Shown here: positions 13,671 through 51,800 of the stretch, piece after piece
Layout: every line of letters starts with the position of its first letter
Position numbering within the stretch: position 1 is the first letter of the stretch
DNA from: Bacillus nitratireducens
GTDB lineage: Bacteria; Bacillota; Bacilli; Bacillales; Bacillaceae_G
Length of the DNA: 64,000 nucleotides
Reading direction: 5' to 3'
Assembly: GCF_001884135.1 (NCBI RefSeq)
Contig: NZ_MAOC01000020.1
Coordinates: 1-64,000, forward strand
Translations under genes and position numbers: made by a program
The notes under the pieces: model-generated
Databases searched by the model: none
Seen by the model: only the letters and a program-made list of their open reading frames with translations
What the model was told of the DNA's origin: nothing

Positions 13671-13725
13671 TTGATCTTTAATTTTTTATATTAGGATTAT
13701 TTACTGATAAAGGAGAGAACAGTTA

Positions 13726-13914: not shown

Positions 13915-13940
13915 GACACTCGAAATGAGTGTCTTATTTC
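13909..13940. terminator. Bidirectional intrinsic terminator
   Basis: Stem AAATAAGACACTC/GAGTGTCTTATTT with loop GAAAT-like, overlapping the hfq stop and serving the convergent HD gene as well. Confidence 0.9.
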
Positions 13941-13952
13941 ATAATTAAATGG

Positions 13953-14654: not shown

Positions 14655-14727
14655 GAATATTATACGATAAAACGCATTATTAAAATAAAAAAATGTTTTA
14701 TAAAAATGAAAAGGAAGTCCAGGAATA

Positions 14728-24702: not shown

Positions 24703-26001
24703 ATGAGGTTATCTGATTATAATACGCCGCTATCTGGTATGCTAGCGGCTCAAATGGGATTACAAACGACGAAACAAAACTTATCTAACATTCACACACC
24801 TGGTTATGTGCGTCAAGCCGTGAATTTAGGATCTGTAGGTGCTAGTAACGGTCATACGCCAGGACAGAGAATTGGTTATGGTGTACAAACATTAGGTGTT
24901 GACCGAATTACTGATGAAGTGAAAACGAAGCAATTTAATGATCAGTTGTCACAGTTCTCTTACTACGCATTTATGAATTTTACTTTATCACGAGTAGAGT
25001 CTATGGTAGGAACTACAGGAAAAAATTCATTATCAAGTTTAATGGATGGTTTTTTTAATGCGTTTCGTGAAGTTGCGAAAAATCCGGAACAATCAAACTA
25101 CTACAGTACATTAGCTGCTGAAACTGGAAAGTTCACAAGTCAAGTAAATCGTCTTGCGAAAAACTTAGATACAGCAGAAATACAGACGACAGAAGATATT
25201 GAAGCGCATGTCAATGAATTTAATCGTCTTGGTGCTAGTTTAGCAGAAGCGAATAAAAAAATTGGACAAGCAGGGACACAAGTACCTAATCAACTATTTG
25301 ATGAACGTGATCGCATTATTACAGAGATGTCTAAATATGCCAATATAGAAGTGTCTTATGAATCTATGAATCTGAATATCGCGAGTATTAGAATTGATGG
25401 CGTTTTAACAGTAAATGGACAAGACACATATCCACTTCAATTAAATAAGGGGAACGAACCGATGACTGTTGCGATTTATGGCTCGGATATTCCTTTAACA
25501 GGTGGAGCAATTCAATCGGCAATAGATACGAAAGCGAAGATTGCTAGTTATAAGAAAAATATTGAAGACTTAATGAGTTCTGTGAAAAATCAAGTGAATA
25601 CAGTGATGGGAAAAGACTTCTTCGTTGGAGATCATGCGAAAGATATACAGTTAAATCCTGAATTCGCAAAAGATGTTTCAAAAATGAAAATTTCTGCTGA
25701 AACAGCAAATAAACTGGCAGGAATTACAGATGGAGATTATAAAGAAGGTCTTTCTTATAAACAAGCGTTAGACCAATTTATAGTTGGTGTAGCTTCTGAT
25801 AAAAATGCGGTGAATGCTTATCAAAATATTCATAAAGATTTATTAGAAGGTATTCAGCAAGAAAAAATGAGTATAGAAGGCGTCAACATGGAAGAGGAAA
25901 TGGTTAATTTAATGGCCTTCCAGAAATACTTCGTGGCAAACTCTAAGGCTATTACAACAATGAATGAAGTATTTGACAGTCTGTTTTCGATTATTAGATA
26001 A
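24703..26001 (+). CDS. flgK: Flagellar hook-associated protein 1 FlgK
   Basis: A 432-aa hook-filament junction protein. The N-terminus has the axial rod/hook motif (QTTKQNLSNIHTPGYVRQ, about residues 22-39), and the C-terminus has the partner helix GVNMEEEMVNLMAFQKYFVANSKAITTMNEVFDSLFSIIR. It is shorter than enteric FlgK (about 550 aa) but normal for Bacillus. It follows the FlgN-like gene; a 188-bp spacer with a structured element separates it from flgL. Confidence 0.95.
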   Translation: MRLSDYNTPLSGMLAAQMGLQTTKQNLSNIHTPGYVRQAVNLGSVGASNGHTPGQRIGYGVQTLGVDRITDEVKTKQFNDQLSQFSYYAFMNFTLSRVESMVGTTGKNSLSSLMDGFFNAFREVAKNPEQSNYYSTLAAETGKFTSQVNRLAKNLDTAEIQTTEDIEAHVNEFNRLGASLAEANKKIGQAGTQVPNQLFDERDRIITEMSKYANIEVSYESMNLNIASIRIDGVLTVNGQDTYPLQLNKGNEPMTVAIYGSDIPLTGGAIQSAIDTKAKIASYKKNIEDLMSSVKNQVNTVMGKDFFVGDHAKDIQLNPEFAKDVSKMKISAETANKLAGITDGDYKEGLSYKQALDQFIVGVASDKNAVNAYQNIHKDLLEGIQQEKMSIEGVNMEEEMVNLMAFQKYFVANSKAITTMNEVFDSLFSIIR

Positions 26002-26017
26002 CATGTAGAAGAATTGA

Positions 26018-26180
26018 AAAGCTTTTTTATGGATCCAATATAGGATAGAAGCGGACAGAGCCTTTTAGTGGATCAAGCCGTATAAGATCAGAGAAATGAA
26101 ACGGTTGAATGGTAAGAAAGAAAATAACCGTACAAAGTGGCAGTTGCTTCCTCTTGCCAAGTCAAATATAGATAAAGGAG
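26018..26180 (+). ncRNA. Putative structured RNA element A, flgL leader
   Basis: No protein frame is convincing in this 188-bp gap, which is unusual because flgK and flgL normally abut. It shares with element B (39072-39240) a core (26067-26115) matching at about 33 of 48 aligned positions, centred on AAGATCAGAGAAATG. It also shares a hairpin with loop ending CCTCT just before the 3' arm: TGGCA 26138-26142 pairs with TGCCA 26155-26159, where element B has GTGA/TCAC. AAAAGCTTTTTT begins both. The hairpin ends about 16 nt before the flgL ribosome site. Function unknown; cis regulation is inferred. Confidence 0.6.
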
Positions 26181-26189
26181 AAGATAGGG

Positions 26190-27053
26190 ATGAGAGTATC
26201 GACGTTTCAAAATGCAAACTGGGCAAAGAATCAGATGATGGATTTGAATGTGCAACAGCAATATTACCGAAATCAAGTAACTTCCGGTAAAAAAAATCTT
26301 CTCATGAGTGAAGATCCACTTGCAGCAAGTAAATCATTTGCGATTCAACATTCATTAGCAAATATTGAACAGATGCAAAAGGATATAGCAGATTCTAGAA
26401 ATGTGTTAAGTCAAACGGAAAATACATTACAAGGTATTGTGAAATCTTTAACGAGAGTGGAGCAATTAACTTTGCAAGCGGTAAACGGGACGAATAGTCC
26501 TAATGAATTAAAAGCAAGCGCTGCAGAAATTGATCAGCTTTTAAAACAAGTGGTGTATTTAGCGAATAAACAAGAACAAGGGCGATATATTTTTGGTGGA
26601 GATAGTGCTTCAAAACCACCATTTGCAGAAGATGGTACATATCAAGGTGGGGAAAATGACGTTACCTGGAAATTAAATGATGGATATGAACTCAAAATGT
26701 TTCGCAATGGAAAAGATTTATTGGAACCCGTAATTAAAACGTTAACAAAAATAAGAGATGTTATGCAAAATGGAGACCAAGATGCACTGGAATCTGTAAT
26801 GGGAGAAAATAAAAAAAATCTAGATAATATATTGAATCGTACGACTGAAGTAGGTTCAATATTAAATACAGTGGACACATTTAAGACGATATTAAGTGAA
26901 CAAAATCTAGCTCTTCAAGAAAATAGAAAAGAGATAGAAGATGTAGATTTAGCGGTAGCAATTTCAGATTTAGCTTATATAAATGCGACGTATGAGGCAA
27001 CATTAAAAGCGGTTAGTACAATGAGTAAGACAAGTATTTTAGATTATATCTAG
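26190..27053 (+). CDS. flgL: Flagellar hook-associated protein 3 FlgL
   Basis: A 287-aa flagellin-family junction protein. The N-terminal D0/D1 helix (MRVSTFQNANWAKNQMMDLN, then VTSGKKNLLMSEDPLAASK), central VKSLTRVEQLTLQAVNGTNSPNE, and C-terminal VDLAVAISDLAYINATYEATLKAVSTMSK are all typical. AAAGGAGAAGATAGG precedes the ATG. It is intact, which distinguishes this strain from motility-deficient relatives in which flgL is broken. The 5' region contains structured element A. Confidence 0.94.
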   Translation: MRVSTFQNANWAKNQMMDLNVQQQYYRNQVTSGKKNLLMSEDPLAASKSFAIQHSLANIEQMQKDIADSRNVLSQTENTLQGIVKSLTRVEQLTLQAVNGTNSPNELKASAAEIDQLLKQVVYLANKQEQGRYIFGGDSASKPPFAEDGTYQGGENDVTWKLNDGYELKMFRNGKDLLEPVIKTLTKIRDVMQNGDQDALESVMGENKKNLDNILNRTTEVGSILNTVDTFKTILSEQNLALQENRKEIEDVDLAVAISDLAYINATYEATLKAVSTMSKTSILDYI

Positions 27054-27069
27054 AAAAGGAGTGAAAAAT

Positions 27070-28440
27070 TTGGGGACTTCAGTATCAAATTTAGGTGGAA
27101 GACAGCAAATATGGAATCTTGGTAACAATATTATTGATACCTCTAATCTAGTAAATTTAGAATTACAGGCTTTAGAAATGAAAAAAACGCCTTACAATAA
27201 TCAAAAACAAACCTTAGCTACGGAACGAAATGTATATGCGAGTATGAAAAAGGAATTCGGTAGTTTTATGCAAGTATTCAAGGAGATGTATGCGTTTAAA
27301 GGGAATGAGAAGAAAGCGGGGGTGTCTAAAGAGGGATTTATTAATGTTCAAGCTGATGCTTCCGCACTTGCAGGAACGTATACGATTAATGTTAAAAAAG
27401 TAGCGGAAAGACATCAGATTACAACTACACTCATAGATAAATCTGATTCTGAAAATCCTAAAAATATAATCGAATTGGATTCGGAAATTGGAAAAGATGC
27501 TACATTTCGTATTAACGATAAAGAAGTTAAGCTTACTAAAGAGATGACATATAAGGATTTTGTTAATAAAATGAATAATGGAAATTATGGAGTGTCTGTA
27601 TATTCATTAGGTGGACAGTTGTTTTTTACATCAACTACTGCTGGGGAAAATGGAGAAATTAAATTAGTTGATGGTGAAGGTGGAATATTAAAAGACATTG
27701 GATTGGTAACTTCAGAAATGATAGATGGAAAAAATGTAATTGCCAAACAAGTAACAGCGCCTCAAAATGCCGAATTTATAATTAATGGTATGACTGATAG
27801 CAGTCCCTCTAATAAAATTGATACAATTCCAGGATTAACTATTAATTTGGAAAAGGAAACGACTGAACCAATTAAGGTTACGATTGAAGATTCAAACATT
27901 AAAGAATCAATCAATATGATAAAAAAAATGAGAGATCAATATAATAAGGCTGTTTCAACGCTCGATTTATTTGCCGGCGAAAATGGAGCTATGCAAGGTA
28001 ATAATATTGCATTTTCTATTAGTAATATTATGGCTAATGTATTTAGACACAAACAAGATGATAAATTTATGTTTTCATTTGGAATTGAAGTCGATAAGAC
28101 TGGAAAAATGGTTCTCGATGAAGAAAAGCTAAGTAAGGCTTTTAAGGAGAATCCAGAAACTGCAAAACAGTTCTTCTTTGGCTTTAATGGACTAGGGCAT
28201 GAGATAGAAAAAAAACTAGATGGTATTTTAGGAGATGAAGGTGTAATAGGGCAGAGGTCAAAAAGTATAGAGGGGCAAATAAAAGAGCTAGATAAAAAAA
28301 TTGATGCAATCGATAAGCTGAATAAACAAAAACAAGAGACCATTATTGATAAATATTCAAAGTTAGAACAACAGTTATCGATGTTAGATCAGCAACTAAA
28401 AACAATTAAAGCAATGACAAAACAAAAAAGTGATGATTAA
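27070..28440 (+). CDS. fliD: Flagellar filament cap FliD
   Basis: A 456-aa hook-associated protein 2 that caps the filament and adds flagellin. The N-terminal domain has the FliD pattern (NNIIDTSNLVNLELQALEMKKTPYNNQKQTL), then GTYTINVKKVAERHQI, and the C-terminal coiled coil (QLSMLDQQLKTIKAMTKQK). The nominal GTG at 27061 overlaps the AAAAGGAG site, so the TTG at 27070 is the likely start. Tight spacing with flgL and fliS shows one operon. Confidence 0.93.
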   Translation: MGTSVSNLGGRQQIWNLGNNIIDTSNLVNLELQALEMKKTPYNNQKQTLATERNVYASMKKEFGSFMQVFKEMYAFKGNEKKAGVSKEGFINVQADASALAGTYTINVKKVAERHQITTTLIDKSDSENPKNIIELDSEIGKDATFRINDKEVKLTKEMTYKDFVNKMNNGNYGVSVYSLGGQLFFTSTTAGENGEIKLVDGEGGILKDIGLVTSEMIDGKNVIAKQVTAPQNAEFIINGMTDSSPSNKIDTIPGLTINLEKETTEPIKVTIEDSNIKESINMIKKMRDQYNKAVSTLDLFAGENGAMQGNNIAFSISNIMANVFRHKQDDKFMFSFGIEVDKTGKMVLDEEKLSKAFKENPETAKQFFFGFNGLGHEIEKKLDGILGDEGVIGQRSKSIEGQIKELDKKIDAIDKLNKQKQETIIDKYSKLEQQLSMLDQQLKTIKAMTKQKSDD

Positions 28441-28462
28441 TGAAAGTTAAGGAAGTGATCGT

Positions 28463-28831
28463 ATGCAAGCATGGCAACGCTATATGCAAAATGACATTAT
28501 GACGAGTAATCCAATTAAAAATACAATTTTTATTTATGAAAGATGTATCGTTGAGTTTCGTAATTTAGAAGAGCTTTTAAATACTTTTAAACTCCAAGAA
28601 GGAGATACGCTCCTTGAAAAATTAGAACGTATTTTTGAAGAGCTAAAGCTTCAATTAAATCCTGAGATTACTAAAGATTTGTATGATAGCCTATTCGGTT
28701 TATACGATTGGATTAGCATTCAAATTCAGACGATGAAAGTAACGCGTGAAGCAAACGATATTGATGCGATTGTGAAAGTGTTACAAGATTTAATAGATGG
28801 TTACCGCGGAGCAATTGAAAATGAACAATGA
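28463..28831 (+). CDS. fliS: Flagellin chaperone FliS
   Basis: A 122-aa four-helix protein that binds flagellin before export. Signature: QNDIMTSNPIKNTIFIYERCIVEF at about residues 8-31, and LYDWISIQIQ with VLQDLIDGYRGAIE near the end. It follows fliD by 22 bp and overlaps the next small gene by 11 bp. Confidence 0.93.
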   Translation: MQAWQRYMQNDIMTSNPIKNTIFIYERCIVEFRNLEELLNTFKLQEGDTLLEKLERIFEELKLQLNPEITKDLYDSLFGLYDWISIQIQTMKVTREANDIDAIVKVLQDLIDGYRGAIENEQ

Positions 28832-29093
28832 CATTTATCAAGCGTTTGTCGGCTGTTTTAATGAAATCGGTGAATTACAAGTATCAGCTGAAGAATTTAC
28901 TGAGAAAAGTGCTATGTTAAATCGCTGGATGATGACTTTGGGTGAAAAGACGCGAGCAGATGTTGCAGCGGAAGTGAGTCCATTAATAATAAAGGCAGCT
29001 CAACATATTCGAGATAAGCAAAAGATTTTGGAAGAAATGATTATGACAAATGATGGGCGAATGAAGGCTAATTCGTATTACGGTAAATATTAA
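28821..29093 (+). CDS. FliT-like small helical protein
   Basis: A 90-aa protein overlapping the end of fliS, the usual place of the FliT-type chaperone of FliD. It is mostly helical (about residues 5-35 and 50-80). The ATG at 28821 has GGAG nine bases ahead, while longer in-frame versions start inside fliS. Similarity to FliT is by position and size only. Confidence 0.7.
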   Translation: MNNDIYQAFVGCFNEIGELQVSAEEFTEKSAMLNRWMMTLGEKTRADVAAEVSPLIIKAAQHIRDKQKILEEMIMTNDGRMKANSYYGKY

Positions 29094-29106
29094 TTGTAAA
29101 GTATGG

Positions 29107-29138
29107 AAACGGGTTCCTCTTATTACAAGGGGGATCCA
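29107..29138 (+). terminator. Hairpin after fliS-fliT, possible terminator
   Basis: GGGTTCCTCTT pairs with AAGGGGGATCC, partly through G-T pairs, with loop ATTAC. The T-rich tail is weak, so termination is uncertain. The next 340 bp to flgB hold AT-rich promoter-like sequence without other features. Confidence 0.5.
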
Positions 29139-29479
29139 TTCTGTTGTTTGAATAAAGACGTTCCACTGATTGAGGTTTCACTTTATGACTGTAATGGAAA
29201 AATAGCAATAATTTAAACAATAAAAAAATGAACGTTATTTTATTGTTCTTATATCGAAATGTTATATAGATTACTAGGTAAATACAGTTTTTTATATTAT
29301 TTTATATATTTTTTAATTTTTCTAAAGACAACAATGGGAAAATGGAATAAAATATGAAAGGGTACATGATAGATAATATTTTAATAAATAAATATAAGGA
29401 AATGAATAATGAAGTGAAACTTCCATCAGTGGATGATCATGCCGTAAGCGGTATGATGGAAAAAAGAAGGGTGTGGAAT

Positions 29480-29887
29480 ATGCCGGACTTAGTTAGTGAT
29501 GTTAGTCATTATATGAATTATTTAGTAACGAAGCGAAATACTGTTTCTAGTAATATTGCAAATGCGAATACACCGGGCTATAAAGCGCAAGGTGTAACAT
29601 TTGCTGAACAAATGAATATGAATAATCCACTATTCAAAAAAAACGCTGCGGATTTAAAGAGTAATTCAGACTTATATCAAACGAATGAAATGCACTTACC
29701 GACAGCAAATATGAAAAATACATATGCAAAGATTCAAACGAAATTAATGCAAACGAATAAAGATGGAAATAGCGTGGATGTAACGACAGAAATGCTAGAT
29801 TTAATGAAAACAAACCAATTATATGGTATCTCAATTAATGCGATTAATACGCAATACGCAATTAACCAAGCAGCACGTGGACGTTAA
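29480..29887 (+). CDS. flgB: Flagellar basal-body rod protein FlgB
   Basis: A 135-aa proximal rod subunit with the rod motif TVSSNIANANTPGYKAQGV at about residues 23-40 and the C-terminal helix DVTTEMLDLMKTNQLYGISINAINTQ. The frame is open to ATG 29354, adding 42 residues of a kind not seen in FlgB, but an AAGGGTG site precedes ATG 29480 and gives the standard length. It begins the basal-body block after a 340-bp gap. Confidence 0.9.
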   Translation: MPDLVSDVSHYMNYLVTKRNTVSSNIANANTPGYKAQGVTFAEQMNMNNPLFKKNAADLKSNSDLYQTNEMHLPTANMKNTYAKIQTKLMQTNKDGNSVDVTTEMLDLMKTNQLYGISINAINTQYAINQAARGR

Positions 29888-29907
29888 GTGTAGAAGGGGA
29901 GACAACG

Positions 29908-30321
29908 ATGTTCCAAGCAATTAATGCAAGTGGCTCAGCGCTAACTACAGCGAGAAAATGGATGGAAGTTACTTCTAACAATATCGTAAATGCGAATACG
30001 ACGGGAGCACCAGACGCAGAGCCGTATCACCGCCGAAGTGTGGTGCTAGAATCAAATAATAATTTTGCAAATATGCTAGAAGGAGCTCCTGCTAACGGAG
30101 TGAAAATAAAAAGTATTGAAACAGATCGAAATGAAAATCTAGTATATGATCCAACGCATCCACATGCAAATGAAGAAGGATATGTACGTTATCCGAACAT
30201 TAATGTGACAGCTGAGATGACGAATGTAATGGTTGCTCAAAAAATGTATGAAGCGAATACAAGTGTATTAAATGCGAACAAAAAAATGCTCGATAAAGAT
30301 TTAGAAATCGGCCGAGGATAA
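29908..30321 (+). CDS. flgC: Flagellar basal-body rod protein FlgC
   Basis: A 137-aa rod protein with the N-terminal axial motif KWMEVTSNNIVNANTTGAPDAEPYHRR and C-terminal TAEMTNVMVAQKMYEANTSVLNANKKMLDKDLEIG. Begins 20 bp after flgB with GGGGAG before the ATG. Length is normal. Confidence 0.95.
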   Translation: MFQAINASGSALTTARKWMEVTSNNIVNANTTGAPDAEPYHRRSVVLESNNNFANMLEGAPANGVKIKSIETDRNENLVYDPTHPHANEEGYVRYPNINVTAEMTNVMVAQKMYEANTSVLNANKKMLDKDLEIGRG

Positions 30322-30338
30322 GAGGGAAGAGGGCAAAT

Positions 30339-30638
30339 ATGAAAATCCAACCATTGTTAAATACACAGCCATTTGGAGCGATTCAGCCAATTGGAGCACC
30401 GAAAACTTCTCAAACATCTGTAGTTGAGGGTAGAAAGTTTATCGATTTATTGGAAGATATGAATAAACAGCAAAATAATGCACAAACTGCGGTATATGAT
30501 TTATTGACAAAAGGGGTAGGAGAAACACATGACGTTTTAATTCAGCAGAAGAAAGCTGAATCTCAAATGAAAACGGCTGCTCTTGTACGAGATAATCTTA
30601 TTGAGAATTATAAGTCACTAATTAATATGCAAATTTAG
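30339..30638 (+). CDS. fliE: Flagellar hook-basal body complex protein FliE
   Basis: A 99-aa protein that joins the MS ring to the rod. Signature: FIDLLEDMNKQQNNAQTAVYDLLTKGVGETHDVLIQQKKAESQMKTAALVRDN. The C-terminal NYKSLINMQI is also typical (YQEIMRMQI in other FliE). Tightly spaced between flgC and fliF. Confidence 0.95.
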   Translation: MKIQPLLNTQPFGAIQPIGAPKTSQTSVVEGRKFIDLLEDMNKQQNNAQTAVYDLLTKGVGETHDVLIQQKKAESQMKTAALVRDNLIENYKSLINMQI

Positions 30639-30660
30639 GAAAATGGACGGGTGTGTTTAA

Positions 30661-32238
30661 ATGGAAAAGTTAAAAAATGTTTTCCAATCGTTAAAAACGT
30701 GGCATAAGTTAGTCATTGGTGCTGCGCTTTTAGCAATTGTAACAGGAGCACTTTTATACTTCACCTTGCCAGATAAGTATGTTGTTGTATATCAAAATTT
30801 AAATGATGCAGACAAGCAAGAGATTACAGCAGAATTATCGAAGCTAGGTGTCGATTACCAATTAGCGGCCGATGGTTCGATTCGTGTGCAAAAGAATGAT
30901 GCTCCATGGGTTCGAAAAGAAATGAATGGAATGGGCTTACCGTTTAATTCAAAAAGCGGTGAGGAAATTTTATTAGAAAGCTCGCTCGGTTCAAGTGAGC
31001 AAGATAAAAAAATGAAACAAATTGTTGGTACGAAAAAGCAATTAGAGCAAGATATTGTAAGAAACTTTGCGGTGATAGAAACGGCAAATGTTCAAATTAC
31101 ATTACCTGAAAAAGAGACAATTTTTGATGAGGAAAAAGCAAAGGGGACAGCAGCGATTACTGTTGGTGTGAAGCGTGGTCAACTATTAACGGCTGATCAA
31201 GTTGCAGGTATACAGCAGATGATTAGTGCAGCAGTTCCTGGTGTAAAAGCAGAAGAAGTGAGTGTTATAGATAGCAAAAAAGGTGTTATTTCAAAAGGGG
31301 CAGGTGAAGCGCATTCCAGTAGTTCCTCTTCTTATGAGAAAGAAGTTGAGATGCAACACCAAATTGAAGGTAAATTAAAGCGAGATATCGATGCAACGTT
31401 AATGACGATGTTTAAGCCAAATGAATATAAAGTGAATACGAAAGTATCTGTAAACTACGATGAAGTTACACGTCAGTCTGAAAAGTATGGTGATAAAGGT
31501 GTACTTCGTAGTAAACAAGAGCAAGAGGAAAGCTCTACTGCGCAAGAAGGAGCAGATACGAAGCAAGGTGCTGGTATTACAGCGAACGGCGAAGTGCCAA
31601 ACTACGGTACGAACAATAATCAAAATGGCAAAATTGTCTACGATAATAAAAATGGTAACAAAATCGAAAATTATGAAATAGATAAAACAGTTGAAACGAT
31701 TAAGAAACATCCAGAATTAACGAAAACAAATGTTGTTTTATGGGTAGATAATGATACGTTAGTAAAACGAAGAATTGATATGGAAACTTTCAAAGAAGCA
31801 ATTGGTACAGCAGCTGGACTTCAAGCTGATCCGAACGGAAACTTTACAAATGGTCAAGTTAATGTTGTAACTGTTCAGTTTGATCAACCGAAAGAAGACA
31901 AGCCAAAAAAACCAGAAGAAAGTGGTATGAATTGGTGGTTAATCGGTGGAATTACAGGAGGTTTGTTAGCGCTCGCCTTGCTAATATGGTTCTTATTAGC
32001 AAGGAGTAAGAAAAAGAAAGAAGAAGAGGAATATGAAGAATACTTAGCAGAAGAGGAAGTTGCTGTTAGTAGTGAAAGCATTATGGAAATTCCTGAAGAG
32101 AAAATAGTGCCAGAGCCAAAACGAGAACCAGAACCAGTAGAACCGACAGAACCTACATTAGATGACCAAGTGCAGGAAGCTACGAGAGAGCATGTAGAAG
32201 GTACTGCAAAAGTTATTAAAAAATGGCTAAACGGATAG
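30661..32238 (+). CDS. fliF: Flagellar MS-ring protein FliF
   Basis: A 525-aa membrane ring protein with two membrane helices (about residues 18-36 and 425-447), the SRP-like ring-building modules between them (DKYVVVYQNLNDADKQEI, VSVIDSKKGVIS), a Gln/Glu/Ser-rich stretch at about 275-300, and a cytoplasmic tail with Glu/Pro-rich linker ending THEHVEGT-like KVIKKWLNG that binds FliG. No frameshift is seen. Confidence 0.95.
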   Translation: MEKLKNVFQSLKTWHKLVIGAALLAIVTGALLYFTLPDKYVVVYQNLNDADKQEITAELSKLGVDYQLAADGSIRVQKNDAPWVRKEMNGMGLPFNSKSGEEILLESSLGSSEQDKKMKQIVGTKKQLEQDIVRNFAVIETANVQITLPEKETIFDEEKAKGTAAITVGVKRGQLLTADQVAGIQQMISAAVPGVKAEEVSVIDSKKGVISKGAGEAHSSSSSSYEKEVEMQHQIEGKLKRDIDATLMTMFKPNEYKVNTKVSVNYDEVTRQSEKYGDKGVLRSKQEQEESSTAQEGADTKQGAGITANGEVPNYGTNNNQNGKIVYDNKNGNKIENYEIDKTVETIKKHPELTKTNVVLWVDNDTLVKRRIDMETFKEAIGTAAGLQADPNGNFTNGQVNVVTVQFDQPKEDKPKKPEESGMNWWLIGGITGGLLALALLIWFLLARSKKKKEEEEYEEYLAEEEVAVSSESIMEIPEEKIVPEPKREPEPVEPTEPTLDDQVQEATREHVEGTAKVIKKWLNG

Positions 32239-32254
32239 TAAGGGAGGAAAAACA

Positions 32255-33259
32255 ATGTTAGATGAAATCTCCTCCAAAGAAAAAGCTGCCATCCTTATTC
32301 GTACATTAGACGAAGGGGTGGCAGCAAAAGTCATTGAATATATGACGGCTGAGGAAAAAGAAGTGTTACTTCGTGAAATTGCGAAGTTTCGTGTATATAC
32401 AGCAGAAACGTTAGAAAATGTACTAGGGGAGTTTCTGTATGAACTAAATGTAAAAGAATTGAACTTAGTAGCCCCAGATAAAGAATACATTCGTCGTATA
32501 TTTAAAAATATGCCAGAAGACGATTTGGAAAAATTATTAGAAGACCTTTGGTACAACAAAGATAATCCATTTGAATTTTTAAATTCACTAACAGATTTAG
32601 AGCCACTTCTTACAGTGCTTAATGATGAATCGCCACAAACGATAGCAATTATTGCTTCTTATATTAAGCCTCAATTAGCATCTCAATTAATTGAGAGATT
32701 ACCAGATCATAAGCGTGTAGAAACGGTAATGGGCATTGCGAAGCTAGAGCAAGTGGATGGTGAATTAATTAATCAAATTGGTGAGTTATTAAAAGCAAAA
32801 TTAAATAATATGGCATTTAGTGCTATTAATAAAACAGATGGCTTGAAAACGATTGTAAACATTTTAAATAATGTTTCACGAGGCGTTGAAAAAACAGTTT
32901 TTCAAAAGCTTGATGAAGTCGATTATGAATTATCTGAGAAAATTAAAGAAAATATGTTTGTTTTTGAAGACTTACTCGGTCTTGAAGCTCTTGCACTTCG
33001 CCGCGTGTTAGAAGAAATTACAGATAATGGTGTTATTGCGAAAGCAATTAAAATTGCAAAAGAAGAAATTAAAGAGAAATTATTTACATGTATGTCTTCA
33101 AACCGTAAAGAGATGATTCTAGAAGAGTTAGATGGCTTAGGACCGCTTAAGATGACGGATGCTGAAAAAGCGCAGCAAATGATCACAGGTACAGTGAAAA
33201 AGCTAGAGAAAGAAGGAAGAATTATCATTCAAAGAGGTGAAGGTGATGTCCTTATTTAA
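32255..33259 (+). CDS. fliG: Flagellar motor switch protein FliG
   Basis: A 334-aa C-ring subunit with N (about 1-100), middle (about 110-190) and C-terminal torque domain. The middle domain has the family's ALL..DExPQTIAIIASYIKPQLASQLIERLP stretch and the C domain FEDLLGLEALALRRVLEEI with charged residues that contact the stator. GGAGG precedes the ATG. It overlaps fliH by 14 bp. Confidence 0.95.
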   Translation: MLDEISSKEKAAILIRTLDEGVAAKVIEYMTAEEKEVLLREIAKFRVYTAETLENVLGEFLYELNVKELNLVAPDKEYIRRIFKNMPEDDLEKLLEDLWYNKDNPFEFLNSLTDLEPLLTVLNDESPQTIAIIASYIKPQLASQLIERLPDHKRVETVMGIAKLEQVDGELINQIGELLKAKLNNMAFSAINKTDGLKTIVNILNNVSRGVEKTVFQKLDEVDYELSEKIKENMFVFEDLLGLEALALRRVLEEITDNGVIAKAIKIAKEEIKEKLFTCMSSNRKEMILEELDGLGPLKMTDAEKAQQMITGTVKKLEKEGRIIIQRGEGDVLI

Positions 33260-33932
33260 AAACAGAATTCCGAAGAATTCTGTTTCTTTTTCTGAAGAAA
33301 CGTATGAATTACAGTTTCCAAAACCAATACGAGTTCATGATGAAGGGGAAATACAAGTAGATCATGCAGAGCTTCTTGCGCAGCAAGATGCATTACATAT
33401 TGAAATGAATCAGCTAAGGCAGCAGCAACAAACGTTAGAACGAGAGCATCAGGAGTTGTTACAGGCTAAAGAAGAGTTTCAAATGCATATTCATGAACAA
33501 ATGGAACAGATGGAAGCAGTACGTATGCAATTTCAAAAGGAGCAACAAGAAACGGCATACGAATGGACAGAATTATTATGGGAACAATCTTTTCAATTAG
33601 CAGAAAAAATTGTGAATCAAGCGATAGATTCACGATTATTAGACGTTCTGCCAATATTAACAGGGATCGTTCAAACATTACCGACTTCATTTGAAAAGTT
33701 AATTATAACGGTTCATCCAGAAACATTTGAGCGTATACAAGAAGAGAAAGAAGATACGAAAGAGTATTGGTTACTACAATTAGTAGAATGGAAGTATGAT
33801 TTTTCTTTACAGTTTGGTGAGTTTGTTTTGGAGGAAGAGAAAGAGTTCTTTGAATTTAAATTTGCACCTATATTTGCGAAACTTCGTCGTAAATGGGAAG
33901 AGAAAAAGTTGTTTGAGGAGCAAAATGTATGA
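33246..33932 (+). CDS. fliH: Flagellar export apparatus regulator FliH
   Basis: A 228-aa FliH-type protein: an N-terminal coiled coil rich in Gln/Glu (about residues 40-105) and a C-terminal V-ATPase-E-like domain (NQAIDSRLLDVLPILTGIVQTLP). It controls the export ATPase FliI. An in-frame GTG at 33237 is part of the GAGGTGAAGGTG site, so ATG 33246 is chosen. It overlaps fliI by 4 bp. Confidence 0.88.
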   Translation: MSLFKNRIPKNSVSFSEETYELQFPKPIRVHDEGEIQVDHAELLAQQDALHIEMNQLRQQQQTLEREHQELLQAKEEFQMHIHEQMEQMEAVRMQFQKEQQETAYEWTELLWEQSFQLAEKIVNQAIDSRLLDVLPILTGIVQTLPTSFEKLIITVHPETFERIQEEKEDTKEYWLLQLVEWKYDFSLQFGEFVLEEEKEFFEFKFAPIFAKLRRKWEEKKLFEEQNV

Positions 33933-35218
33933 ACGAACATAATAAATGGACTACGTTTATTGAAACACCGTTTTATACGAAAGTTGGCAAAGTTCATAGT
34001 GTACAAGAGCAGTTTTTTGTAGCGAAGGGACCGAAAGCGAAGATTGGAGATGTTTGTCTCGTTGGAGAGCATAGCGTCTTATGTGAAGTGATTGCAATTG
34101 AAAAAGAAAACAATATGTTACTCCCATTTGAACAGACAGAAAAAGTGTGTTACGGAGATTCAGTGACATTAATTGCAGAAGATGTCGTTGTGCCCCGTGG
34201 TAATCATTTGCTTGGCAAGGTGTTAAGTGCAAATGGAGAAGTGTTAAACGAAGATGCTGAAAATATTCCAGTGGAAAAAATAAAATTAGATGCACCGCCG
34301 ATTCATGCGTTCGAGCGTGAAGAAATTACAGACGTATTTGAAACGGGAATTAAAGCGATTGATTCTATGTTAACGATTGGTATCGGACAAAAGATTGGTA
34401 TTTTTGCTGGATCAGGTGTTGGTAAATCTACTTTACTTGGAATGATTGCGAAAAATGCAAAAGCAGATATTAACGTTATTAGTTTAGTAGGTGAACGTGG
34501 CCGGGAAGTAAAAGACTTTATACGAAAAGAATTAGGCGAAGAAGGTATGAAAAGAAGCGTCGTTGTTGTAGCGACGTCAGATGAAAGTCACCTTATGCAA
34601 CTTCGGGCGGCAAAGCTTGCAACGTCGATTGCCGAATATTTCCGAGACCAAGGAAATAATGTATTACTTATGATGGATTCAGTTACTCGTTTTGCCGACG
34701 CTCGCCGAAGTGTAGACATTGCAGTCAAGGAATTACCAATCGGTGGTAAAACACTGTTAATGGAAAGTTATATGAAAAAGTTATTAGAGCGATCCGGAAA
34801 AACAAAAAAAGGGTCAATAACAGGTATTTATACAGTGTTAGTTGACGGTGATGATTTAAATGGTCCTGTACCAGATTTAGCTCGTGGTATTTTAGATGGA
34901 CATATTGTATTAAAACGTGAACTCGCAACTCTTAGTCATTATCCTGCCATTTCTGTATTAGATTCGGTAAGTAGGATTATGGAAGAAATCGTATCGCCGA
35001 ATCATTGGCAACTTGCAAATGAAATGAGAAAAATTTTATCTATTTATAAAGAAAATGAATTGTATTTTAAATTAGGAACAATTCAAGAAAATGAAGAAAA
35101 TGCTTATATTTTTGAATGTAAAAATAGAGTAGAAGATATAAATATGTTTTTAAAACAAGGTCGAACTGATAGTTTTCATTTTGAAGATGTTGTGCAAGCG
35201 ATGCACCATATTGTGTAA
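33929..35218 (+). CDS. fliI: Flagellum-specific export ATPase FliI
   Basis: A 429-aa F1-type ATPase for export of flagellar proteins. Walker A AGSGVGKST at about residues 160-168, GERGREVKDF and the Walker B strand LLMMDSVTRFADARR, then the RDP-like LDSVSRIMEEI. All motifs are present. Coupled to fliH by a 4-bp overlap. A strong terminator follows directly, so fliI ends this transcription unit. Confidence 0.96.
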   Translation: MNEHNKWTTFIETPFYTKVGKVHSVQEQFFVAKGPKAKIGDVCLVGEHSVLCEVIAIEKENNMLLPFEQTEKVCYGDSVTLIAEDVVVPRGNHLLGKVLSANGEVLNEDAENIPVEKIKLDAPPIHAFEREEITDVFETGIKAIDSMLTIGIGQKIGIFAGSGVGKSTLLGMIAKNAKADINVISLVGERGREVKDFIRKELGEEGMKRSVVVVATSDESHLMQLRAAKLATSIAEYFRDQGNNVLLMMDSVTRFADARRSVDIAVKELPIGGKTLLMESYMKKLLERSGKTKKGSITGIYTVLVDGDDLNGPVPDLARGILDGHIVLKRELATLSHYPAISVLDSVSRIMEEIVSPNHWQLANEMRKILSIYKENELYFKLGTIQENEENAYIFECKNRVEDINMFLKQGRTDSFHFEDVVQAMHHIV

Positions 35219-35248
35219 GACCTCGCCCTTCGAGGTCTTATTTTTTTG
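35217..35248 (+). terminator. Intrinsic terminator within the flagellar locus (after fliI)
   Basis: Stem AAGACCTCG/CGAGGTCTT with loop CCCTT and a seven-T run. It splits the basal-body operon from the fliJ-onward unit. Confidence 0.93.
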
Positions 35249-35257
35249 TTTTTAATA

Positions 35258-35291
35258 TTTCACAGTTTTTTTTGTGAAAAAACTATATAAT
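35258..35291 (+). promoter_or_regulatory. Promoter of the fliJ-fliK-flgD-flgE unit with a TTTCACA/TGTGAAA dyad
   Basis: A -10 box TATAAT at 35286-35291 follows a perfect 7-bp inverted repeat (35258-35264 and 35273-35279, 8 nt apart) that lies over the -35 position. Its position just behind the fliI terminator marks a new transcription start. The dyad could be an operator; no regulator is known for it. Confidence 0.65.
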
Positions 35292-35333
35292 AGAAAAAAG
35301 GAACGTTATAATAGGAAGGGGCTATGAAAAAGG

Positions 35334-35744
35334 GTGGATAAACAGCAGTACGACACGATAAAATTGCAGATTAATCAAGAGAAAGAACAAATCTTGAAAG
35401 AAGTGTACGAACTAACAGCTGAAAAAAGAAAAATAGAACAAAAAAAGGAATATGATTTGTATGTTGTAAAATCACGCAGTAAAGTCGTACAAACTGGGCA
35501 ACGTATTATGGTTGGTATGCTGTCTTCACATACATTTTCACCTGAAAGAATAGAAGAATGGAATCGGAAAATTAAAAAAACAGAAGGTTTTATTCAAAAA
35601 AATGAAAGCCTTTTAGAGCAAATAAAAGAAAAAGAACGTGTCATTGATGAAATGTATCAAGAAGATTGTAAGAATCTTGCGAAAGTAAAAGAAAAGTTAG
35701 AAGAAAAAATGCTTCTTGATTTAAAAATGTGTATGAACGGATGA
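35334..35744 (+). CDS. fliJ: FliJ-like flagellar export chaperone
   Basis: A 136-aa protein that is nearly all coiled coil (about residues 8-40 and 60-130), placed between fliI and fliK as FliJ usually is. The start is a GTG (35334) with a poor immediate site; the nearby ATG at 35324 gives only a five-codon peptide. Sequence conservation of FliJ is low, so the call depends on position and coiled-coil form. Confidence 0.78.
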   Translation: MDKQQYDTIKLQINQEKEQILKEVYELTAEKRKIEQKKEYDLYVVKSRSKVVQTGQRIMVGMLSSHTFSPERIEEWNRKIKKTEGFIQKNESLLEQIKEKERVIDEMYQEDCKNLAKVKEKLEEKMLLDLKMCMNG

Positions 35745-35754
35745 GGTGGGTGTA

Positions 35755-36855
35755 GTGATACAATTTGTATTACCGGTGCAGCAAAGTTTATCTCCACAAA
35801 AAGACAAAGGGCTAGAAGTACAATCGAAAAATGAAAATTCTTCATTCGATAATACAATGAAAATTGAAAATAAAAAACAGCCGAAAACGGAGAAATCGAA
35901 ACAAGAAGAAGCACCAAAAAAAGAGAAGAAAGAATATCTTCTCGCAAAAAAAACGGTAACGAAAGAAAAGTCGATTGAAAAGAAAGAAGAAAAAAAAGAG
36001 ACAGAACAACTATTACTAGCTGTATCTGGGCAAATGATTGCAATTGAACAATTGCGTGTGCAGCCAGAATCGTTATATCTATACATACAAAAAATACAAA
36101 AACTATATAAAGAATACGGGAATATTAAACTGAACGAATTGCCTACAGCTGAATTACAACAATTACAAGAAATTCTTTCGAATATAAATATTGAAAATAT
36201 CATATATTTAGAAGATACAATACTAATGACGTTAGACAAGGTGACGATGCCAGAGCAAACATTGCAAGTATTAAAATTCGTAGAATCAGAAACTTGTAAT
36301 ATTGCAAAGAAACAAGAGGGGCCTAAGGAAGTAGAACCCCCGAAAGCAGAGAGTGATGATGTGAAAGTAGAGTTACCAAAAGTCGATCAGTTAAATGACT
36401 CAAATTCGACCGGGGCTGAGTTATTAAATAAAGCAACGGGTACTGACCAAATAGGAAAACAAAATAGTGGAGCTGAGAAGGTTACAATACCTGATTTAGG
36501 CAAGAAGATGGAAGCACAAGTAGAAGCTCTGCAAAAGTTTGTAGTGAAAAAAGAACGTGTTTTATTCCAGCTAAATCCAGAGAAACTGGGTACATTAACT
36601 GTATTTATGAAAAAGCATGGAGATCAAATTGATGTCCATGTAGAAATGGAAAAACAAGATGCGAAAAAACGTGTTGAAATGATTTTTGACGAATTGAAGC
36701 TAAAGTTAAAAGAAAAAGAAATTAATATTCAAATTAGTTATTCAGAAAAAGATGAGCATCGTAAAGAACAACGAGAACAAGAGCAAAGACAAAAGCAAAA
36801 ACTAGCAAGTACGAAACAAGAATCGAAAGAATTTGCTGGATTATTGGAGGAATAA
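35755..36855 (+). CDS. fliK: Flagellar hook-length control protein FliK
   Basis: A 366-aa secreted ruler. A Lys/Glu-rich, probably disordered N-terminal part (about residues 15-95) and a variable centre are followed by the conserved C-terminal Flg_hook domain (FQLNPEKLGTLTVFMKKHGDQIDVHVEM...). The long frame opens at 35746, but GAGGTG places the start at GTG 35755. It is one codon before flgD. Confidence 0.88.
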   Translation: MIQFVLPVQQSLSPQKDKGLEVQSKNENSSFDNTMKIENKKQPKTEKSKQEEAPKKEKKEYLLAKKTVTKEKSIEKKEEKKETEQLLLAVSGQMIAIEQLRVQPESLYLYIQKIQKLYKEYGNIKLNELPTAELQQLQEILSNINIENIIYLEDTILMTLDKVTMPEQTLQVLKFVESETCNIAKKQEGPKEVEPPKAESDDVKVELPKVDQLNDSNSTGAELLNKATGTDQIGKQNSGAEKVTIPDLGKKMEAQVEALQKFVVKKERVLFQLNPEKLGTLTVFMKKHGDQIDVHVEMEKQDAKKRVEMIFDELKLKLKEKEINIQISYSEKDEHRKEQREQEQRQKQKLASTKQESKEFAGLLEE

Positions 36856-36858
36856 AGC

Positions 36859-37437
36859 GTGCCAACAGTTGGATTAAATGCAACGAGTATAAATCATATT
36901 CCGTTACAGGCGGGAGCGCAAAAAAGCAACGCACCTGTTAATGGCGTACATTCGCCAGTTCAACAAACAAACGGAGTATCAGCAAGTACTCAAAAAACTC
37001 CCGGTGTAATGGAGAAAGATGATTTTCTAAAATTGTTTTTAGCGAGTTTTCAGCATCAAGATCCATTCAATGCGATGGATATGAATCAAATGATGAACCA
37101 AACAGCACAGTTATCTCTTATGGAACAAGTGCAAAATATGACAAAGGCAGTTGACTCTTTAAGAACGACGATGTATTCGACAGCACTTGATGGAGGAATG
37201 AAGTTTTTAGGAAAGTATGTAAGAGGTATTGACGGTGAAGGGAACAAAGTGACTGGTCAAGTAGAGACAGTTCGTCTTGCAGAAAATAACGATGTACAGC
37301 TTGTTATTGATAATAAAGTTGTATCTCTTCGTTTCGTTGAAAGAATATCAGATAAACCGATTGGAGAAACGAATCCAGAAGATGTAAAGAAAGATGATCA
37401 AAAAGTAACTGAAGAAGTAAAAACAACAAATTCATAA
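36859..37437 (+). CDS. flgD: Flagellar hook cap protein FlgD
   Basis: A 192-aa hook scaffolding protein. The conserved part is MEKDDFLKLFLASFQHQDPFNAMDMNQMMNQTAQLSLMEQ (about residues 50-90), where FlgD has DFLKLLVTQLQNQDP. The middle GMKFLGKYVRGIDGEGN fits the following beta domain. Start GTG after GGAGGAAT. Directly precedes flgE. Confidence 0.93.
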   Translation: MPTVGLNATSINHIPLQAGAQKSNAPVNGVHSPVQQTNGVSASTQKTPGVMEKDDFLKLFLASFQHQDPFNAMDMNQMMNQTAQLSLMEQVQNMTKAVDSLRTTMYSTALDGGMKFLGKYVRGIDGEGNKVTGQVETVRLAENNDVQLVIDNKVVSLRFVERISDKPIGETNPEDVKKDDQKVTEEVKTTNS

Positions 37438-37454
37438 GGGAGTGTTCATGCATT

Positions 37455-38678
37455 ATGATTAAAGCGTTATATACAAGTATTACAGGATTGAATGCAACAC
37501 AAAATGCATTAAGTGTAACTTCAAATAATATTGCCAATGCACAAACAGTTGGTTATAAAAAACAAAAAGCAATGTTTGATGATTTACTGTACAACAATTC
37601 AATTGGTGCAAAAGGTGACGATAGATACGCAGGAACGAACCCAAAAAGTATCGGTAACGGTGTGAAAATGAGCGGAACGGTTACGGATTATAGCGATGGT
37701 ACAATTACGTTAACTGGTGGTAAAGTACAAGCAGCGATGGAAGGTAATGGTTTCTTCGTTGTAGGTGATTCAAAAGCTGGAAATATGGAATTTACACGTA
37801 AAGGGACCTTTGCAATATCTTCGGATTACTATATTACGAATACAGGAGGTCAATATGTATTCGCTTATCCAGCCGATCCATCAACTGGTAATGTTGACTT
37901 ATCTGGTATCCCAGGACCACTACAAATTCCAATGGGATCAGCAATCGGTGGTATTCGAACGTCAAAAGGTATAGTTGGAGGGAACATTCCAGCTGATGCA
38001 AAACACATTACGCAAGAATTGCCTGCATATGATGATGCCGGTAATACATGGACAATGCGCGTAGAGTTTACACAAGATGGTGAACATAATTACAAATATA
38101 CAGTAAAGATGCGTAATGACTCGAAAAAAGAAACTGAGTTTACAGAGGTTCAAGGCGCAGGTGGTAATGTGACATTCGATGCAGTAGGGAATCCAGATCC
38201 AGTAAACCCTGAAGCGAATATTCCATTTAATGGTGGAACAGTAAAAATAGATTTTAGTAAATTAACAAACCACCCGACAGAGAAAACAATAGCAGTAACA
38301 AACGTAGATGGTAGACCAGCGGCAACTGTTAAAGATTGTTTTATTACTGACGGTGGATATGTGATGGTAAAATATTCTGATGGAAGTATGAAAGCGGCAG
38401 GTCAATTAGCTGTTGGGATGCTCCCGAATGAAGGCGGCCTAATGAAAACCGGTAATGGTAACTTTACAGCGACAAATACAACAGGTATTTTAGCACTAGG
38501 TGTATCTGGTCAAAACGGTGCAGGAAAAGTACGTGGTGGTGCACAAGAAGGTGCAAACGTAGATTTATCTGTAGAATTTGTTGATTTAATGCTATACCAA
38601 CGTGGCTTTCAAGGAAATGCGAAAGTAATTAAAATTTCAGATGAAGTATTAACTGAAGTTGTAAACTTAATTCGATAA
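37455..38678 (+). CDS. flgE: Flagellar hook protein FlgE
   Basis: A 407-aa hook subunit. N-terminal rod motif NALSVTSNNIANAQTVGYKKQKAMFDDLLY (about residues 15-45), then GMEGNGFFVVGD, and the C-terminal VDLSVEFVDLMLYQRGFQGNAKVIKISDEVLTEVVNLIR. Complete and in good context after flgD. Confidence 0.96.
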   Translation: MIKALYTSITGLNATQNALSVTSNNIANAQTVGYKKQKAMFDDLLYNNSIGAKGDDRYAGTNPKSIGNGVKMSGTVTDYSDGTITLTGGKVQAAMEGNGFFVVGDSKAGNMEFTRKGTFAISSDYYITNTGGQYVFAYPADPSTGNVDLSGIPGPLQIPMGSAIGGIRTSKGIVGGNIPADAKHITQELPAYDDAGNTWTMRVEFTQDGEHNYKYTVKMRNDSKKETEFTEVQGAGGNVTFDAVGNPDPVNPEANIPFNGGTVKIDFSKLTNHPTEKTIAVTNVDGRPAATVKDCFITDGGYVMVKYSDGSMKAAGQLAVGMLPNEGGLMKTGNGNFTATNTTGILALGVSGQNGAGKVRGGAQEGANVDLSVEFVDLMLYQRGFQGNAKVIKISDEVLTEVVNLIR

Positions 38679-38727
38679 TAAATAGTAAAGAAAAATTGTA
38701 ACGTAGTAGAAAGGGTTTTATATTCGT

Positions 38728-39063
38728 ATGACAAGACAAGAGCGAATTTCACAATTGCCTTTTTTCGAAAATAAAAGTGAGCTTGCTGAGCAAGTGTTAA
38801 AAATAGAACGAGAAGAGCATGTATATTTACCAGATCAATTTGAAATCAAACAAGTGCCCCCATATTCGTTTGGTGAAAAACAAGCAATCATTGGTCGTAT
38901 ACACGAATTTTATTTCGTAAGTATTGGTAGTAATGGTGTTTGGAAGTATCAATTGTTTAAAGATGAGATGAAGTGCCGTGAGTTTTTCGTTATGTTGCCG
39001 GATATTACGGATCAGCAGCTTGCTTTTTGGTTTAATAACATTGAGTTGTTGAAAGGGGCTTAA
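38728..39063 (+). CDS. Hypothetical protein in the flagellar locus, 111 aa
   Basis: A soluble 111-aa protein that I do not recognise, with a possible small alpha/beta fold and no signal peptide or membrane helix. It lies 50 bp after flgE in the fliJ-started unit, followed by the long spacer carrying element B. Function unknown, motility link by position only. Confidence 0.75.
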   Translation: MTRQERISQLPFFENKSELAEQVLKIEREEHVYLPDQFEIKQVPPYSFGEKQAIIGRIHEFYFVSIGSNGVWKYQLFKDEMKCREFFVMLPDITDQQLAFWFNNIELLKGA

Positions 39064-39071
39064 AATCTCTT

Positions 39072-39240
39072 AAAAGCTTTCTTTTAGGTTTTGAGAGAGG
39101 GCCTAGCGATGATTAGTAGGTTTGCATAAGTGGCTCACATGTTGTAAGACCAGAGATATGGAGTGGTTCTAAGGTAGTTGGATGGGCTGGAATCCAAGTG
39201 TTTAGGTGATGCCTCTTCACTTTTTGAAGATTGGAACTAT
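39072..39240 (+). ncRNA. Putative structured RNA element B, before the FliG-like gene
   Basis: A 281-bp gene-free spacer. It shares with element A the opening AAAAGCTTT (39072-39080), the core 39129-39177 (centred on AAGACCAGAGATATG) and a hairpin GTGA/TCAC (39206-39209 and 39217-39220) whose loop ends CCTCT. Two more hairpins are TTGGAT/ATCCAA (39179-39198) and TCTTCA/TGAAGA (39214-39231). The loop segment CCTCTTCAC (39212-39220) could pair with GTGAGGAGG (39336-39344) at the ribosome site of the next gene. The paired stems differ from element A but are still complementary. Confidence 0.6.
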
Positions 39241-39344
39241 CTGAGTCTAGAAGCTGCGATTTGAAATAGATTTAGATTAATTTAAGATAGTTGTGTTATA
39301 TTGTACAATTAGACTAAGTTTATATAAGAGGAGAGGTGAGGAGG

Positions 39345-39830: not shown

Positions 39831-39970
39831 GCTTTACCACTGTTTTTATTATTTTAAAACTGTAAGGCTCACGCAATTATCTATATTTTTATATAGGTAG
39901 TTGACTTTTTAAGTTTAATAAAGCTTAATAAATAGATATATAGAATTAATAGAAGAGGAGCGACACTTTT

Positions 39971-40879: not shown

Positions 40880-40943
40880 AAGGTTTTGAAAAGCGTTTTT
40901 TAGTTGGAAGAGTCGGCGTAAAATACATTTTTAGCTGAAAAGA

Positions 40944-40979
40944 GGAACTAGCCGTATAGTACAGGTTAGTTTCTTTTTA
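40944..40979 (+). terminator. Intrinsic terminator after cheV
   Basis: GGAACTAGCC pairs with GGTTAGTTTC (one bulged A and G-T pairs) and is followed by TTTTT. Confidence 0.75.
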
Positions 40980-42368: not shown

Positions 42369-42423
42369 ATACAAAACAAAAGGGAAATACATATATACTA
42401 TGTATTTCCCTTTTGTTTTGTAT
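42369..42423. terminator. Large perfect hairpin after mogR
   Basis: A 25-bp perfect inverted repeat (42369-42393 and 42399-42423) with a 5-nt loop; the arms hold A and T runs, so it can terminate in either direction. Confidence 0.88.
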
Positions 42424-44903: not shown

Positions 44904-44912
44904 GTGAATATA

Positions 44913-47648: not shown

Positions 47649-47804
47649 GAAAACCACAATCTAGATTTGTTTTTTTTCGAAATTATAACAAATAGAGGAC
47701 AGCAAAGTAACTGTCAAAATGTTTTAGCATTTAATTTGGCTTAATAGGAAATTCTAATGAGCAAAGACCTTATCTGATTTTAGTTTTAGAAAGGAGAGAA
47801 GCGG

Positions 47805-48584
47805 ATGGATTCAATATGGCTAGAGTATGCTTGGGCATTGTTAATTTTAATCGGATTAGAAGGATTGTTATCGGCTGACAATGCCCTTGTACTAGCAGTT
47901 ATAGCCAAGCATTTACCCGAAGAAGAGAAAAAAAGAGCTATAAATTACGGAATTATTATGGCCTTTGTTTTTCGATTCGCAGCCCTTTTTGCTATATCAT
48001 TTATTGCAAATGTTTGGCAAATACAGGCGATAGGAGCAGCTTATCTTCTTTACTTAGGATTAAAGCATGTCATTCAGGCGCAATTCGGAAAAAATAATCA
48101 AAATATTCACAAGGAAGATGAAAAGGAAGCAGCAGGAAAAAGCTACTGGTTCACAGTAGGAAAGATTGCATTAGCTGATCTTGCTTTTGCGATTGATTCA
48201 ATATTAGCTGCAGTCGCTCTTGCCCTCGGTCTTCCGGATTCACCGCTAGAAGATTTCGGTGGTATGGATGGAGGACAATTCATAGTTGTACTTCTCGGAG
48301 GAATTGCCGGACTTATTTTAATTAAATTTGCGGCAACTTGGTTTGTACAATTACTGGAGAAACGTCCGGCACTGGAAACAACAGCATATGCAATTGTTGC
48401 CTGGGTCGGCGTCAAACTTGCTGTAATTACACTTGCCCATGAGGATATCGGTATTTTAAGTCATGATTTTCCGCACAGTACAACTTGGACTTTAATCTTC
48501 TACGGAGTATTAGTTGCTATCGCACTAATTGGCTGGTTTGCACCGGGAAGTAAGTCATCTCAGAATAATCCTGAAAGGGAGTAA
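47805..48584 (+). CDS. TerC-family membrane protein (YkoY/YjbE type)
   Basis: A 259-aa membrane protein with seven or eight helices, a GLEGLLSADNALVLAVI first helix with the conserved Glu and Asp of the TerC family, and the second motif LADLAFAIDSILAAVALALG. B. subtilis relatives (YkoY/YceF) supply Mn2+ to exported enzymes. The fold is certain and the metal role is from the family. The 156-bp 5' gap lacks the yybP-ykoY riboswitch core. A strong terminator overlaps the stop codon. Confidence 0.87.
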   Translation: MDSIWLEYAWALLILIGLEGLLSADNALVLAVIAKHLPEEEKKRAINYGIIMAFVFRFAALFAISFIANVWQIQAIGAAYLLYLGLKHVIQAQFGKNNQNIHKEDEKEAAGKSYWFTVGKIALADLAFAIDSILAAVALALGLPDSPLEDFGGMDGGQFIVVLLGGIAGLILIKFAATWFVQLLEKRPALETTAYAIVAWVGVKLAVITLAHEDIGILSHDFPHSTTWTLIFYGVLVAIALIGWFAPGSKSSQNNPERE

Positions 48585-48618
48585 AAAGGTCAGAGCATTA
48601 TGTGCTGTGACCTTTTTA
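48583..48618 (+). terminator. Intrinsic terminator after the TerC gene
   Basis: Stem AAAAAGGTCA/TGACCTTTTT, overlapping the TAA stop. Confidence 0.9.
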
Positions 48619-48629
48619 TCATTTTGATA

Positions 48630-48658
48630 TTGTGTATTTTTGAATTTAACGCTATAAT
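48630..48658 (+). promoter_or_regulatory. Probable sigma-A promoter of the fdhA unit
   Basis: TATAAT at 48653-48658 with TTGTGT at 48630-48635, spacing 17 bp. It predicts a start near 48665 and a leader of about 180 nt. Confidence 0.6.
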
Positions 48659-48664
48659 TACAGT

Positions 48665-48845
48665 GTTAAAGATGGAATCGTGATATGACCTGTTATGAAT
48701 CTATCATTTTATTTATGAATAAATGGACTGGTATTTTAGCAAGATGTGCTAATAAACTACTCCACCATGATGATAACGTGCCAAAAATGTGGTGCGTATA
48801 TTTTCGTGGTGGAGTTTTTTTTATTCTCAAAAAGGGGGAGTCACC
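48665..48845 (+). promoter_or_regulatory. Attenuator-like leader of the formate dehydrogenase operon
   Basis: Leader between the predicted promoter and fdhA. It contains an intrinsic terminator: a 12-bp arm 48759-48770 (ACTCCACCATGA) pairs with 48804-48815 (TCGTGGTGGAGT, one T-G pair), with a nested hairpin in the loop and an eight-T run, only about 20 bp before the ribosome site. No gene lies upstream to be terminated, since the TerC gene has its own terminator. A regulated read-through mechanism (metal, cofactor, formate or redox) is plausible. I cannot match it to a known riboswitch. Confidence 0.7.
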
Positions 48846-51785: not shown

Positions 51786-51800
51786 GGGGGAGAAAAGAAT

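Follow-up and report, generated by a model that had tools for sequence, protein, structure and literature searches.

Within the flagellar gene cluster of Bacillus nitratireducens, two gaps that hold no evident gene, one before flgL and the other before a gene for a FliG-like protein, raise the question of how the sequences that fill them arose and whether these are related to one another. The cluster was analyzed in a stretch of 64,000 nucleotides (contig NZ_MAOC01000020.1, positions 1 to 64,000; hereafter the window), where it is of the MogR type and runs flgK, flgL, fliD, fliS, flgB ... flgE, DUF3964, FliG-like, cheV, mogR. The DUF3964 and MogR proteins gave strong family matches and the FliG-like gene, upstream of cheV, a weak match to FliG_C (E 0.0063, under the Pfam cut-off); the names of genes outside the family searches were taken from their translations. 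The strong DUF3964 and MogR matches, together with the description of MogR in Listeria and the Bacillus cereus group, make a member of the latter the most likely source of the cluster. The first gap, which holds element A, spans 26002-26189, and the second, the expanded gap from the DUF3964 gene to the FliG-like gene that holds element B, spans 39064-39344 (281 nt); neither contains an open reading frame of at least 80 amino acids, and the features described in both lie on the + strand. As stated in the initial annotation of this DNA, both elements open with AAAAGCTTT (26017-26025 and 39072-39080, within a few bases of the positions first assigned). The accompanying claim that genes are close together everywhere else does not hold, as wide gaps occur elsewhere in the same cluster: 260 nt precede flgB, 115 nt follow fliI, 140 nt precede cheV and 496 nt precede mogR. 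The explanation preferred here, held tentatively and at slightly less than an even chance, takes A and B to be non-coding insertions specific to this lineage, in a cluster that otherwise keeps most of its gaps down to a few bases; they are probably two copies, by now decayed, of a single short interspersed repeat.

Relatives for comparison were reached through a scan with MoaC, from which 80 loci were kept (best identity 82%, in other Bacillales) and which led to two genomes, G006 and G008; a scan of genome contigs with the window's FliG, and scans of viral contigs with FlgL and DUF3964, found no relative. Both genomes carry the cluster in the same order, with identities of 67-68% for FliG, 61% for DUF3964, 51% for the FliG-like protein and 44-45% for MogR, though MogR is described in the available part of one report from Listeria and the Bacillus cereus group only (PMC7793685). 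Across the 397 genomes of the order to which they belong, G006 and G008 alone matched the FliG-like gene strongly, a third genome following at E 3e-4. The gap between flgK and flgL is 188 nt in the window and 15 nt in both relatives, and in seven more genomes it measures 6, 6, 7, 10, 14, 21, and 29 nt; as it is short in all nine genomes examined, the 188-nt gap appears to be derived. From the stop codon of the DUF3964 gene to the ATG of the FliG-like gene the distance is 281 nt in the window and 11 nt in both relatives (measured from stop to ATG; other choices of start gave 8 and 5).

At A, the word TAGATAA occurs as a 7-bp direct repeat. Its left copy (25995-26001) has the flgK stop codon at its end, and its right copy (26169-26175) lies directly 5' of the flgL AGGAG. 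When 26002-26175 is removed, a segment that comprises the presumed insertion together with one copy of the repeat and reaches from the flgK stop codon to the flgL ribosome-binding site, the resulting junction TAGATAA-AGGAG is close to the CATAA-AGG of the relatives. The sequence is thus suggestive of an insertion of A at the flgK stop codon that left the direct repeat behind. At the other site, B may have been inserted after the DUF3964 gene, either alone or as part of a larger piece. The AAAGGGG at 39052-39058, within the end of that gene, aligns by eye with a GGGG that the relatives have at the stop codon of DUF3964, from which their FliG-like gene is probably read, and is a likely ancestral ribosome-binding site for this gene. 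Insertion would have split the FliG-like gene from this site and would have supplied, or given space for, another ribosome-binding site and perhaps a promoter: GAGGAGAGG at 39328-39336 is the likely present ribosome-binding site, judged from its sequence upstream of the ATG at 39345, and a promoter-like TTAAGA-16-TACAAT (39282-39309; a 9/12 consensus match only) lies in the same gap, with a second such site at 39261-39288. Two promoter-like sites were thus observed in B where 0.5 are expected in shuffles; promoter-like and terminator-like sites were looked for in A and none was found. The simplest effect of the insertions would be one of spacing, in that flgL and the FliG-like gene would each be translated without coupling to the preceding gene; a short flgK-flgL gap permits coupled translation, which 188 nt would end. 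The evidence does not require that the inserted sequences have any role beyond this.

That A and B may be copies of one element is suggested by their resemblance. The shared core announced in the initial annotation was recovered as 33 of 49 identical ungapped positions, between 26067-26115 in A and 39129-39177 in B. With an ungapped 48-base score, 33 of 48 was reached by none of 2000 dinucleotide shuffles in one run and by 3 of 78,417 in another. The same score placed A-B first of 812 intergenic comparisons with p ~7e-5, the next being 0.0027; these comparisons covered 29 intergenic stretches of the window on both strands, with 150 shuffles and a Gumbel fit for each, and one or more of the stretches (12862-13952 for certain) included small genes that were uncalled at that point. 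Since anyone who reads through 64 kb selects the most striking of many pairs, the p value needs correction, and the corrected likeness is borderline at ~0.03-0.06, the length of 48 having been picked post hoc. The G+C contents of A and B (0.378 and 0.374) rank second and third among 30 intergenic stretches; this is unusual for plain AT-rich spacer and would be in keeping with DNA that was imported or once had a function. On balance, a common origin of A and B is somewhat favored.

Several observations weigh against an origin of A and B as insertions of one repeat. The resemblance depends on the score: with a gapped +1/-1 score A-B was only sixth of 812 (p 0.0011, about chance level), and 11 of 8000 shuffles matched it; with a third gap setting 6 of 1000 did, and with a looser score 343 of 8000, where A-B fell outside the top ten of 812. 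A word of 7 or more was shared in 97 of 5000 shuffles of the flanks of A (a chance rate of ~2%), so the TAGATAA repeat is suggestive only. A terminal inverted repeat was not found at A (1689 of 2000 shuffles of the termini scored equally), and no comparable direct repeat was found at B, where there is only a 6-mer at unrelated positions. The short ancestral gap at B is supported by two genomes only. Finally, a model built from A and B (R1) detected no third copy above chance in the window or in the relatives' loci. The earlier proposal of a mobile repeat therefore stands in part: both gaps are expanded relative to the two syntenic relatives and A has its direct repeat, but a terminal inverted repeat at A and a comparable direct repeat at B were not found.

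The search for further copies produced weak matches, none of which was accepted. Besides A and B, model R1 matched the window at 14961-15046 (E 0.026), which sits in a broken motA-like gene, and at 40883-40951 (E 0.58); in the relatives' loci it gave two matches, at E 3 and 5.9. Across 19 family genomes, matches with E<=1 appeared in four (best 0.11) and no convincing copy was seen. Three of the R1 alignments were inspected and rejected, as each leaves 74-98 of the model's 174 positions unmatched, the core included. A blastn search of the 397 genomes of the order, in which at most two candidates per genome were scored, returned matches to A at E<=0.01 in 33 genomes against ~4 nominally expected; none of the matches listed spans more than 40 of the 188 bases, and with their scatter over the query they were taken as chance. 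Those to B, in 12 of 397 genomes and covering at most 54 of its 281 bases (at 80%), were regarded in the same way. Plasmids held no match to A or B, viral contigs none to four core patterns, and the phage records that matched (15 for A at E 0.6, 6 for B at E 0.3-0.9) did so over 24-29 bases each, at chance level. The gap before flgB was rejected as a third copy, since its score against A was equaled by 698 of 1000 shuffles and that against B by 62 of 1000. A relationship between B and the relatives' gap between the FliG-like gene and cheV, suggestive by eye, was dismissed likewise (equal scores in 316 of 1000 shuffles for G006 and 984 of 1000 for G008).

These results bear on a different account, in which the two gaps are unrelated expansions whose likeness is due to chance, several spacers having been gained as an ancestral operon split into smaller transcription units. 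It is a serious possibility, if one that falls clearly short of even. The gap before flgB, 260 nt in the window, is 20 and 21 nt in G006 and G008, so that A and B would be two of at least three spacers gained; this further gap shows no significant likeness to A or B, the gapped A-B score is about what chance gives, and B holds promoter-like sites. Set against this are the ungapped score, by which A-B leads the 812 comparisons 40-fold ahead of the next, and the lack of any promoter-like or terminator-like site in A. It is unlikely that A and B are paralogous cis-acting regulatory RNA elements with a CCUCU-loop hairpin. The core resemblance by the ungapped score would fit such elements, as would the hairpins themselves, which are present as first described. 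That of A (TGGCA/TGCCA, 26138-26142 and 26155-26159; in all 26138-26159) has a 12-nt loop and that of B (GTGA/TCAC, 39206-39209 and 39217-39220; in all 39206-39220) a 7-nt loop, both loops ending in CCTCT; CCTCT occurs 77 times in the window when both strands are counted, and in only 3 cases does it close the loop of a perfect hairpin (stem of at least 4 bp, loop of 5-14 nt), the sites in A and B among them. An Hfq-like gene upstream of the locus also speaks for an RNA. The arms were said to differ but to stay complementary, and this fails in the MAFFT alignment, where the loops differ in length and the 5' arms fall in different columns, such that the columns of the A hairpin pair at 3 of 5 positions in B and those of the B hairpin at 0 of 4 in A. 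With a gap placed in the loop by hand, the stems superimpose with two compensatory differences between these two sequences; the arms nonetheless lie outside homologous columns.

Folding likewise argues against a regulatory RNA. Neither element folds better than its shuffles (z -0.77 for A and -0.42 for B, with 44 and 68 of 200 shuffles equally stable), and the same is true of the two-sequence consensus fold obtained with alifold on the A-B alignment (z -0.75; 221 of 1000 shuffled alignments as good), so that the conserved fold first proposed was not borne out. Local folds as stable as the A hairpin occur in 16% of the window's 36-base stretches and as stable as the B hairpin in 6.6%, and the predicted local fold in B pairs other bases. 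No Rfam family, riboswitches included, reached the gathering cut-off anywhere in the 64,000 bases, and A and B are absent from both syntenic relatives. A relaxed Rfam search (E up to 10) gave five matches in A and four in B, all far under cut-off; the top match in A was preQ1-II (E 1), with 18.1 bits where the cut-off is 47, and that in B scored 14 bits where 71.8 are required. A look-alike of group II intron domain 5 in A (AGCCGTAT...ACGGTT) was set aside, as no group II family is among the five matches and B is without its first half, and a search for tRNA and tmRNA found none. Descent from a decayed gene was also rejected: the 16 core mismatches have no codon period, the stop-free 40-codon frame of A has no Pfam match at E up to 1, and tblastx and blastx comparisons with the window, with the flagellar proteins it encodes and with the loci of the relatives gave no E below 0.09 (self-matches of A and B excluded). 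The most ambitious proposal is given little credence: an undescribed mRNA element, born in this lineage, would have entered the flagellar operon twice, leaving A and B as paralogs that jointly tune the output of flgL and of the FliG-like gene by means of the short CCUCU-loop hairpin and a purine-rich core. Equally doubtful is membership in the repeat families bcr1-bcr18 of the B. cereus group, with which A and B were compared by description only; these are intergenic, measure 100-400 bp and are in many cases transcribed within mRNAs, bcr10 and bcr18 being predicted RNAs, according to the available parts of PMC3446304 and PMC6542083, but their mobility is tied in the latter to TTTAT motifs, as opposed to the TAGATAA repeat at A.

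Lineage-specific insertion remains the preferred reading; the order of the genes, the gap lengths in relatives, the direct repeat and the A-B resemblance are observed, and insertion as the event, a shared origin of A and B and any influence on expression are inferred from them. If the two copies are of one element, it would be a short repeat that reset spacing and ribosome-binding sites within a conserved flagellar operon. As it stands, the locus documents a lineage-specific gain of spacers, and carries the caution that weak intergenic likeness is no evidence of an RNA fold.

Other features of the locus were observed in passing. Just upstream of the motility cluster are a small Hfq gene (13726-13911; E 3.4e-19) and a Spo0E-like gene (13443-13667; E 4.6e-13). 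The motA/motP-like stator gene of the window (14706-15478) is broken, its pieces lying in separate open stretches (MotA_N, E 0.0008, under the cut-off; MotA_ExbB, E 5.7e-24), and the partner gene that follows looks truncated. A terminator-like hairpin stands directly after fliI (35215-35241), and in G006 and G008 this position is likewise taken by one with another stem sequence; a transcription break after fliI therefore seems conserved. In these two genomes the gap between the FliG-like gene and cheV holds a GAGAGG...CCTCTC inverted repeat of ~55 nt, and this gap folds better than shuffles in G008 (z -2.96) and no better in G006 (z -0.49); the corresponding gap of the window (39831-39970; z -2.37) is unlike it in sequence. 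Terminator-like long inverted repeats follow mogR (~42372-42419) and the flagellin gene (60306-60612); they resemble each other and form the window's strongest intergenic match by the gapped score. Between mogR and the flagellin gene (~44904-60305), a region considered an evolutionary hotspot in the available part of PMC7793685, are GGDEF-EAL-like, formate dehydrogenase-like and molybdenum-cofactor-like genes, all named from translations.

Among the titles and abstract openings searched, a body of literature outside which most subscription papers lie, none describes an RNA at these gaps, and comparison was made with three known systems. The c-di-GMP riboswitches of B. thuringiensis, as described in the available part of PMC4759541, represent a structured RNA that recurs within the same species group; A and B differ from them in that they have no better-than-shuffle fold and that no riboswitch family reaches the Rfam cut-off in the window. 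Non-autonomous elements of the type of miniature inverted-repeat transposable elements (MITEs) are comparable as short insertions, given the possible target-site duplication TAGATAA at A, and differ in that A is without a terminal inverted repeat and B without a direct repeat. From bcr1-bcr18, the present pair is set apart by having no TTTAT-flanked copies shown and by amounting to two weakly alike copies in 64 kb; with these families it shares an intergenic position, the size range and the species group, along with frequent occurrence in transcripts on the families' side, most of the 18 being low-copy (PMC3446304, PMC6542083, in the parts available).

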